Assembly: GCA_945869735.1 (NCBI GenBank)
Contig: CAMBPQ010000022.1
Coordinates: 1-43,864 of the forward strand
DNA length: 43,864 nucleotides
From: Planctomicrobium piriforme
Lineage (GTDB): Bacteria > Planctomycetota > Planctomycetia > Pirellulales > UBA1268
Reading direction: 5' to 3'
Below the pieces are notes generated by a model, which was not told the origin of the DNA, did not search any database, and saw only the letters and a program-made list of their open reading frames with translations. Shown here piece after piece: positions 14,182 through 18,305 of this stretch. A program made the position numbers and the translations under genes. How positions within the stretch are numbered: the stretch's first letter is position 1; each line of letters begins with the position of its first letter.

Positions 14182-15117
14182 CTACCGGCGGGCGTCGAGC
14201 TCCCGGGAGGCCTGTCGGTTGGCCAGAAACCGCCGCAGACCGCTGACGATCCGGGTTGCCGACTGCGATCCTGACTCGGTGTGGATGGGCGTCTCGCCGT
14301 CCTCGGTGACGATCACCTCCACCCCTTCGGGAGCGAGTTCGGTGCCCCCCAGCAGGTCTTCGGTGACGCCGGAGGGAGTCGCCGCGGCCTCGTCCCGCGG
14401 GGGAACTTGGGCGACCACGAAGTTGTTGCGGGCCAGCGAATCGAACTCCGGATCCTGAATCAGGGTGGCGACCCGGGTTTTGGCCTCGGAATCGCTGGGC
14501 CGCGAGACCAGAAGCAGCATCGGTCGCCGGGAATCGCGGGCCGTTTCCACGGCCTTGTCGAGCGAGGAGAGAATCTTGCCGTCCTCGCTGTCCTGGCTCG
14601 GCTTTTCAGCCAGAACTGGGGCAGGCACGTGCTTGTCGAAGGCCGCCAACCAGGCCTCCGGGGCTTGGCCGTGATACCCCGACTGCCCCATGATCCTGGA
14701 CCCGTCTGGGGCGATCAGGACGGTGTTGGGGAACGTCCGGACGCCGTATTTGATGCACACCCGCGACCGGGCATTCCGCTCTTCCTGCGAAATACCCTGC
14801 TGGGGAAGGTCGATCATCAGCAGGACGACCCGGTTCGCGGCCCAAGCCAGGAACTGATCGGTTTCCAGCACTTTCTTTTCCAAGGTCACGCAGTGGGGGC
14901 ACCAGTCGCTGCCCGTGAAGATGGTCAGGACTGGACGGCCGGACTGCTCGGCGGCTGCCATCGCGTCCTCGTAGTCCCGCAGCCAGTGGTCGCCGGCCTG
15001 GACTGACCCCATGCCGGCGAAAATCGCGGCTATGACGGCGATCCAGCGGGCCAAGCCTCCGGTCCGCGGAGCCAGCGGCGAAAACTGAAATCTTCCCGTA
15101 GCGTTGCTCAAACTCAT
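14182..15117 (-). CDS. Secreted thioredoxin-like protein (WCPHC)
   Basis: 311 residues with a ribosome site GGAGG nine nt before the ATG. A hydrophobic export segment lies at about 24-41 (WIAVIAAIFAGMGSVQAG). A thioredoxin fold follows, with the active site W72-C73-P-H-C76 and a cis-proline region in GVRTFPNTVLI. The dipeptide P-H is the DsbA-type pair, more oxidising than thioredoxin's G-P, although the fold looks closer to thioredoxin-family folds. Residues about 160-300 form a second, cysteine-free domain that may be a degenerate thioredoxin repeat (RRPMLLLVSRPSDSEAKTRV). Probably a periplasmic disulfide enzyme; partners are not visible. Confidence 0.85.
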   Translation of the reverse strand: MSLSNATGRFQFSPLAPRTGGLARWIAVIAAIFAGMGSVQAGDHWLRDYEDAMAAAEQSGRPVLTIFTGSDWCPHCVTLEKKVLETDQFLAWAANRVVLLMIDLPQQGISQEERNARSRVCIKYGVRTFPNTVLIAPDGSRIMGQSGYHGQAPEAWLAAFDKHVPAPVLAEKPSQDSEDGKILSSLDKAVETARDSRRPMLLLVSRPSDSEAKTRVATLIQDPEFDSLARNNFVVAQVPPRDEAAATPSGVTEDLLGGTELAPEGVEVIVTEDGETPIHTESGSQSATRIVSGLRRFLANRQASRELDARR

Positions 15118-15465: not shown

Positions 15466-15468
15466 CGG

Positions 15469-15498
15469 CGAGGCCCACCGTTGCCGGTGGGCCTCGCT
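15469..15498 (-). terminator. Strong hairpin terminator downstream of the porin
   Basis: A perfect 13-bp stem (gcgaggcccaccg / cggtgggcctcgc) with a four-base loop, 43 nt after the porin stop. On the minus strand it is followed by cgttttgc, a weak T-run; on the plus strand by tttgatt. No gene reads into it on the plus strand, so it most likely ends porin transcripts. Confidence 0.75.
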
Positions 15499-15541: not shown

Positions 15542-17032
15542 TTAAAACTGCCAGATCGCGTCGCAGCCGCCGTAGAACTGGCCGTACTGGTCGCCCGACC
15601 CGTTCACAATCTTGCCGAAGGGCAAGTTGCCGCTCGGATCGTCAGGCGAGTACCAGTCGTACCGCAGTTCGGGACGAATGATCCAGTTGTTATTGGGCTT
15701 CCAGTTCAGACCCCACGTGGCCTGCCAGAAGTTACCCGCATACCCACTGCCGAACGGTCCGCCAAAGATCGCATTCCGGATCGGGTTGATCACGCGGGTA
15801 CCGTTATTGTCACGAAACCACTCGAACCGCATGCCACCCACCAGCGTGTCGCTGATGTTGTAAAACATGTACTGGTTGATGCCGTACCACTGGGCGAGCC
15901 CCGCCGCCTGCCCGACGTTCTGAGTCGCCGGGTTGGCGTTGAACTGCCAGCCCAGGTCGTTCTGGAACACGTAGGTGAGCTTGTCGGAGAGCTCGTTCAC
16001 GTACACCGTGCTGACGATCGACCGGTTCCCGATGTTGCCCTGGCCGCTGCCCGCAAACGAGCCGATCTCGTTGCCGCTCGACACGGCCGTGGTCAACGCC
16101 TGGCTGGCATCCGAGTTCTTGAACGTCACACCGCCGAGGAAGGCGGCGTTGCTGTTCGCCCCCGGATACCCCGGGTTGTTGATCCCGAAGTAGTTGATCG
16201 GGTCGCTGAAGTTATCCCAGCCGTTGGTGATACCGCCGTACACCGTCAGCTGATCGTTGGGAGTCCACGTGTCGAGGACGCCCGGGTGGGTAAACGGCTC
16301 GCCATACTGCATCGTCTAGGCGTGCGTGTAGAAGAAGTTGCCGATGGCCGGCACCACTTCATACCCGATGATCGTGTAGAAGTGCCCGAACTTGACAGCG
16401 TGGTTCGCGGCCCCGACCTCACCGTAGAGCTGCGGCATCGCCAGGCCGTAGTCCTTGCTCGAGGCCCAAGAGGGCGCACCCCCCGTACCGGCCGGATTCG
16501 GCTGGTAGAGCAGGTTGCCGTCGAGACCGCGGGCCGTGGTGTAGATGTAGTCGGTACCGTAGAGGAGGTCGACGCGACCGCCCCAGTCGGGCCCGTCTTC
16601 GGTATCCAGCAGCTTCTCATTGACGAGGTACAACTGGTTCATCTGCCCCTGCCAGGCACGATCATTGAACGTGATCGGGCCGTTGAACGGGCTGCCCCAG
16701 TTGTTGGCACCGATCCCCACGGCGGCCCAGCCGTAGGTGTTGATCCCGCGGCTTTTCAGAGCCTCGAGTTCCAGATACCGGTTCGGCCCCTCCTCGACGG
16801 ACGCTTCCTGGGCAGCTTCCTGCGGCGGGAGGCCGCGGAGCTGGTAGGCATCCTCCTCGGGCACGTTGGCCATAACCGGGTCCCGCACAGCCGGTGTTTC
16901 GGCCTGAGCGAAGTGGTTATAGAGATTTGGATCAATACGTGACGGCAACGACGTGTCGTCTGCAGAGGCTGACGAGTGGGCCAGCAGGCCGCCCGCCACC
17001 CACATAGGTAGAATAAACTTGGCGAATCGCAT
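15542..17032 (-). pseudogene. Outer-membrane beta-barrel porin (BBP2/OmpL-like) interrupted by an in-frame amber codon
   Basis: One reading frame of 496 codons plus stop encodes a planctomycete-type outer-membrane porin of the OmpL-like beta-barrel porin-2 family. It has a signal peptide (MRFAKFILPMWVAGGLLAHSSASA), a ribosome site GGGAG, a conserved GHFYTIIGYEVVPAIGNFFY stretch, and many aromatic-rich strands to the C-terminal Phe of AIWQF, as barrel proteins have. Codon 239 is TAG (16316-16318). The flanks read FFYTHA-stop-TMQYGEPFTH, where the family has tyrosine, so one base (TAC to TAG) explains the break. Both halves keep good coding character, so the change is recent, a sequencing error, or read through. 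A restart at MQYGEPF (16312) would give no exported barrel. The gene has its own 235-nt upstream gap. Confidence 0.85.
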
Positions 17033-17267: not shown

Positions 17268-18305
17268 TCAGCCGGCCGCGGAGAAGGCGCCTTCGAGGAG
17301 GGCCGAGAGGAAGGCCTCCGGCTCAAAGCGATCGAGGTCATCGGCCGATTCGCCCACCCCGACGAACTTCACCGGCAGGCCAAACTGCTCGGCCACCGGC
17401 ACAATCACGCCTCCGCGGGCGGAGCCGTCGAGTTTGGTCAGCACGATCCCCGTGCAGCCGGCCGCCTCTTTGAAGCCCTTCGCCTGCGAGAGGGCGTTTT
17501 GGCCGGCGGTTGCGTCGATCACGAGCAGCGTTTCGTGCGGGGCGTCGGGGATCTGCTTGGCGATCACGCGGCGGATCTTGCCGAGCTCCTGCATCAGATT
17601 GGCCTGGGTCTGTAGTCGACCGGCCGTGTCGATGATGCAGACATCAAAGCCTTCCCCGATGGCCTTGGCCACGGCCCGGTGGGCGACGCTCGCAGGATCA
17701 CAGCCGGGCTCTCCACGGACGATCTCCACGCCAAGCCGACCGGCCCACATGCCGAGCTGCTCGACGGCGGCGGCCCGGAACGTGTCGCCCGCCCCGAGCA
17801 CGACTCGCTTGCCGTCCCGCGAAAACAGCCGCGCGAGTTTTGCGATCGAGGTCGTCTTGCCCGAGCCGTTGACGCCTGTCACGAGAATGACGGTGGGACC
17901 AGACGTCGCCGTAACGATCGACGCCGCCGCGGGCGCGAGCCGCATGAGCAGCTGGGTGCGGATCGAATCGAGGACAACCTTGGGATCGACGACGCGGGCA
18001 CGAAGCCGCTCGCGGACGTCGACGACGATCGCCTCCGCCGCCGACGGCCCCATGTCGGTCTTCACCAGGGCCGCACGGAGCTCCTCGAGAAACTCGTCGT
18101 CGACCAGCCGCCCCTCACGTTTGAAGAGGTCGCGGACGTCGGTGTTGAACACCCGGGAGGTCTTCGCGAGACCGGCGCGGAGCCGGGCGAGAAAGCCCTG
18201 TGGCGCGGGCTGGTCGGTGGCGGTCTCGACGGGCAGTGCCGCGGCCTCCGCAGCGGCCTGCGACGGCGGCGACTCCTCCTTGCGACCGAAACGAAACAGG
18301 GCCAT
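17268..18305 (-). CDS. ftsY: Signal recognition particle receptor FtsY
   Basis: 345-residue SRP GTPase that docks ribosome-nascent chains at the membrane. The N-terminal acidic A domain is short (about 1-35). The N domain follows (about 36-130), then the G domain: P-loop GVNGSGKTT at 144-152, GAGDTFRAAA at 171-180, DTAGR at 226-230, TKLDG at 290-294 and GVGESADDLDRF at 316-326. All GTPase motifs are intact. It starts with GGAG eight to nine nt upstream of the ATG and follows nusB by 24 nt, as last gene of the rho-ribH-nusB-ftsY unit. The Ffh partner is not in this window. Confidence 0.96.
   Translation of the reverse strand: MALFRFGRKEESPPSQAAAEAAALPVETATDQPAPQGFLARLRAGLAKTSRVFNTDVRDLFKREGRLVDDEFLEELRAALVKTDMGPSAAEAIVVDVRERLRARVVDPKVVLDSIRTQLLMRLAPAAASIVTATSGPTVILVTGVNGSGKTTSIAKLARLFSRDGKRVVLGAGDTFRAAAVEQLGMWAGRLGVEIVRGEPGCDPASVAHRAVAKAIGEGFDVCIIDTAGRLQTQANLMQELGKIRRVIAKQIPDAPHETLLVIDATAGQNALSQAKGFKEAAGCTGIVLTKLDGSARGGVIVPVAEQFGLPVKFVGVGESADDLDRFEPEAFLSALLEGAFSAAG

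Follow-up and report, generated by a model that had tools for sequence, protein, structure and literature searches.

A private in-frame TAG in a BBP2 porin gene and other scattered stops in a draft planctomycete genome

The interrupted porin gene and its surroundings

The window, that is, the whole stretch of 43,864 nucleotides analysed here, lies within contig 22 of a draft genome of a lake-type planctomycete (G000; 3.17 Mb in 128 contigs, estimated to be 95% complete), and its sequence contains no N. It carries a porin gene of the BBP2 family (OmpL-like putative beta-barrel porin-2, PF07642), which is preceded by ftsY and followed by a thioredoxin-like gene (Table 1). No private deviations were found in these two neighbours. 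The porin frame begins with the ATG at 17032 and extends for 238 codons, up to the residues FFYTHA, where it meets a TAG (16318-16316) followed by ACG and by an ATG at 16312. From this ATG, the frame is open in the same phase as the 5' part to the stop at 15544-15542 (256 amino acids). The initial annotation had described a single amber codon in an otherwise intact porin gene, and this description was borne out, as the two parts share one phase and no further stop was found within the 496 codons.

The expression signals that had been pointed out were also visible. By eye, the start of the protein, MRFAKFILPMWVAGGLLAHSSASA, is signal-peptide-like, and GGGAG, a candidate ribosome site, is located approximately 12 nt upstream of the ATG. 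Downstream of the gene, the strong terminator that had been proposed corresponds to a hairpin with a folding energy of -37.9 kcal/mol (z = -4.9), yet this hairpin was absent from the list produced by a simple terminator scan. It is probably a bidirectional terminator, judging by its sequence. The only Rfam match near the porin gene was to a CRISPR-repeat model (20 bits, approximately half the gathering score), which we attributed to chance.

Table 1. Features of the porin locus (positions in the window) and further in-frame stops found elsewhere in the genome (positions in the contig or locus named)
Feature	Position	Strand	Basis or remark
BBP2 (PF07642) porin gene, 496 codons, broken at codon 239	15542..17032	-	reading frame, profile match, homologue alignment
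In-frame TAG, codon 239, loop between predicted strands 5 and 6	16316..16318	-	sequence, alignment, structure model
Porin 5' part, 238 aa: signal-peptide-like start, low-confidence N-terminal region, predicted strands 1-5	16319..17032	-	
Porin 3' part with its own ATG: other eleven predicted strands and C-terminal Phe	15542..16312	-	
Codon 250, Pro, second private change; Thr in nearly all relatives	16283..16285	-	alignment
Strong hairpin, 13 bp stem and 4 nt loop, then CGTTTTG; probable terminator	15468..15497	-	folding; short T runs beside the stem on both strands
ftsY (SRP54-type GTPase), upstream neighbour, intact	17268..18305	-	
Thioredoxin-like gene, downstream neighbour, intact	14182..15117	-	
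In-frame TAG, sucA (2-oxoglutarate dehydrogenase E1)	G000:C10 6020-6022 (L187)	-	CAG in all checked relatives
In-frame TAG, SBP_bac_3/Lig_chan (glutamate-receptor-like channel) gene	G000:C5:25159 (L243 5159-5161)	+	
In-frame TGA near the 3' end, sulfatase-like gene	G000:C9 17379-17381 (L186)	+	

The 5' and 3' parts of the gene matched PF07642 at profile positions 2-126 (74.9 bits) and 129-339 (124.3 bits), respectively, each above the curated cut-off of 26.2. When the gene was read through the TAG, a single match covering positions 2-339 was obtained (214.6 bits, 2.8e-63). Thus the halves and the read-through protein resemble the family end to end, and the conserved segment NFFYTHAYTMQYGEPFTHT is kept apart from codons 239 and 250, at which the gene of the window's genome differs from the family in having TAG and Pro, respectively.

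When modelled, the read-through protein (pLDDT 75.5, pTM 0.77) is predicted to be a barrel of about 16 strands, and codon 239 falls in the loop that joins strands 5 and 6. The top matches in a fold search with this model were porins, and the nearest were general trimeric porins of Gram-negative bacteria (DcaP 6eus, Omp32 2fgq and OmpF), to which the predicted barrel could be aligned (lowest E 7e-13; best matches with a TM by target of 0.67-0.72). In contrast to this likeness in fold, sequence identity to the trimeric porins was 8-12%, and the protein of the window has an N-terminal region of approximately 80 residues with low model confidence. A sequence search of the PDB with the porin gave no match. 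On this model, truncation after residue 238 would remove eleven strands and the C-terminal Phe, so that no pore formation would be expected.

Codon 239 in related genomes

The initial annotation had joined the flanks FFYTHA and TMQYGEPFTH into one conserved porin segment, with tyrosine expected at the position of the stop. Among 112 aligned homologue rows (some species occur twice, as two collections overlap), codon 239 encodes Tyr in 104 (83 TAC and 21 TAT), Phe in five and Trp in one; the remaining two rows have TAG and both originate from the window's own genome. The alignment to porin-2 family members that had been suggested as a check therefore places the stop at a nearly invariant Tyr, as the annotation had expected. 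The porin query matched in 60 of 60 genomes searched, and a stop inside the match was found only in the window's genome. The stop was likewise confined to this genome in a genus set of 22 genomes, 20 of which had no lesion in the porin parts present or had no orthologue. In these sequence comparisons, the TAG is private to the window's genome. A second private change, Thr to Pro at codon 250, lies about 33 bases from the TAG, and Thr at this codon is, like Tyr at codon 239, nearly invariant among the relatives.

When the gene was compared with the closest intact orthologue examined (94% identical), dN/dS was 0.12 in the part upstream of the stop and 0.11 in the downstream part. With the PF07642 match of each half, this agrees with the earlier statement that both halves have full coding character. 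The 3' part shows no drift, which means that the stop either arose very recently, or has not reached fixation, or is not real.

A lesion at the same place was found in G009, the closest relative of the window's genome by the identity of sucA and of the channel gene. In the porin gene of G009, a frameshifting deletion of approximately 119 bp joins codon 239 to approximately codon 278 (C68 ~2380-2410; L034 5700-5760), and neither N nor a long repeat was found at the junction. Apart from the variable base of codon 239, a stretch of 25 bases over the site is identical in more than 10 related species. Since shared stretches can mislead metagenome assembly, the coincidence of the TAG and the G009 deletion is compatible with an artefact as well as with recurrent loss, and a decision between them would need more than two events. 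In other relatives, what looked like a frameshift of the porin gene in G007 was in fact a scaffold gap filled with N, and the porin gene of G004 (L003) has a private Glu-to-Gly change at codon 225, in the otherwise invariant segment GYEVVPAIGNFFY near the stop site of the window.

Translation machinery and other private stops

A tRNA search of the genome gave 45 matches, of which ARAGORN called 44 as tRNA genes, leaving the weakest (28.8 bits) uncalled. None of the 44 has a CTA anticodon, with the proviso that one may be missing from a genome that is 95% complete; the amber suppressor tRNA for which a check had been proposed was thus not found. Loss of RF1 was rejected, as RF1 is present at C85 with a PxT-type motif (416.7 bits, slightly below the equivalog cut-off of 423.25), and RF2, with an SPF motif, is present at C11. 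Genome-wide reassignment of TAG was rejected as well, since TAG is in ordinary use as a stop and terminates 41 of the 183 non-overlapping ORFs of at least 300 amino acids. Further, no significant local RNA structure was detected in the 161 nt around the stop (z -0.21 against shuffles), so that a recoding structure was also rejected. Suppression or recoding is therefore unlikely. In phages that use translation table 15, TAG is reassigned genome-wide, often together with Sup-CTA tRNAs (PMC11210395). The porin gene resembles this system in having TAG in frame within an otherwise open gene, but the window's genome differs in using TAG as an ordinary stop and in that its interruptions are few and private.

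Mid-gene stops were sought in a sample of 1.24 Mb (39% of the window's genome) by scanning for stops within same-frame coding-potential regions and checking each in relatives. Natural gene ends (the end of ilvC, a cytochrome b gene and others) were judged by eye and left out of the count. Four private stops were found, in the porin gene, sucA, the channel-like gene and the sulfatase-like gene (Table 1). At the site in the channel-like gene, the nearest relative has CAG, and the relatives encode Gln, Gly or Ala; at the site in the sulfatase-like gene, the nearest relative has CGA (Arg), and the relatives encode Arg or Ala. No genus relative has a stop at any of the four sites. A homology scan of the window's genome against samples of three relatives yielded mostly antisense ORF matches and no additional convincing stop. 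The sister genomes are affected too: G018 has an in-frame TAA for Tyr in a gene for a periplasmic sugar-binding-like protein (L257 19232-19234, minus strand), and G009 has TAG in place of Gln in one gene.

Random single changes in the codons of this genome would create a stop in 2.7% of cases, and these stops would be 61% TAG, 20% TGA and 19% TAA. The three TAG and one TGA observed, all in unrelated genes, agree with this expectation, small as the numbers are. The in-frame stops are thus neither restricted to TAG nor conserved, as one in four is TGA and none is common to relatives. Over 0.98 Mb of predicted coding sequence, the four stops amount to approximately 1.5e-4 private changes per base, a rate that, with four events, carries an uncertainty of about threefold. 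As far as can be read from these sequences, the porin stop is part of a background that is not specific to TAG. The stops resemble the sporadic nonsense codons of draft and metagenome-assembled genomes in being few, private and scattered over unrelated genes, in their random-type proportions, and in that sister genomes are affected too; the sole oddity of the window's case is its coincidence with the deletion in G009.

Origin and meaning of the porin TAG

The four causes offered in the initial annotation fared differently. The tests are compatible with a recent loss, with an error of sequencing or assembly and with a mixed allele, whereas readthrough and reversible phase variation are not supported. 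We consider it somewhat probable that a single random base change, isolated and confined to the consensus of this genome, created the TAG. Its most likely source is noise in the consensus or the assembly, or else an allele of a minority strain, and we infer noise or a rare allele rather than a fixed loss. On this view, the draft genome would carry roughly ten private nonsense changes that arose at random. The porin TAG, as one of them, would interrupt an ordinary BBP2 porin of the 16-strand type between predicted strands 5 and 6. If cells carry the TAG, translation would stop after 238 residues, no barrel would be formed and the fragment would be a null product.

The main rival is a recent real loss, in which the stop is fixed and the gene is a loss-of-function allele in a genome that retains another, distant BBP2 porin in intact form (C1:134603, 43% identity). 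The low dN/dS in both halves is what a very young pseudogene would show, and the same gene is broken in the nearest relative by the deletion from codon 239. About ten real pseudogenes per genome are also normal in a bacterium, so the number of private stops is no proof of error; the lack of N in the window and of private deviations in ftsY and the thioredoxin-like gene likewise speaks against noise, whereas the private change close by, at codon 250, speaks for it. However, nearly all of the genus set is free of lesions in the porin parts present or has no orthologue, and the porin is not singled out, as sucA and others are struck as well. Because sucA is a core gene of the TCA cycle, its stop favours noise over adaptive loss, and we regard a fixed loss as possible but doubtful. 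That the porin was repeatedly lost in a small planctomycete clade, with the TAG of the window and the G009 frameshift as independent events at the same codon, seems improbable.

The other explanations are less likely still. If the TAG were read through or suppressed, full-length porin would be made, which would suit the fully conserved downstream frame and the prevalence of TAG among the private stops (three of four); the tRNA set without a CTA anticodon, both release factors, the ordinary use of TAG, the lack of significant structure, the absence of the stop from every relative and the one TGA make this very unlikely. Phase-variable or otherwise programmed on/off switching at codon 239 might be suspected from the lesion at the same place in the sister genome, and porins, as surface proteins, are often variable. 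However, neither a repeat tract nor an invertible element was seen around the site, and a plain substitution alone gives no switch and has no known programmed switching route, which leaves this idea with a very slight chance. We attach the least weight of all to two natural genes that each encode half a barrel. The 3' part does have an ATG two codons past the stop, but it has no signal peptide of its own, and all relatives covering the site, the G009 deletion aside, have one continuous gene, which contradicts the two separate genes in relatives that the initial annotation had named as a possible refutation of its view.

Private in-frame stops turn up about every 300 kb in the portion of this genome that was sampled, and its sisters have them too, so that a single one is no evidence for recoding or for programmed switching. 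Should the coincidence with G009 be real, it would suggest that lake planctomycetes have lost a surface porin repeatedly, which would fit selection against a surface pore (e.g., a phage receptor) as a population polymorphism.
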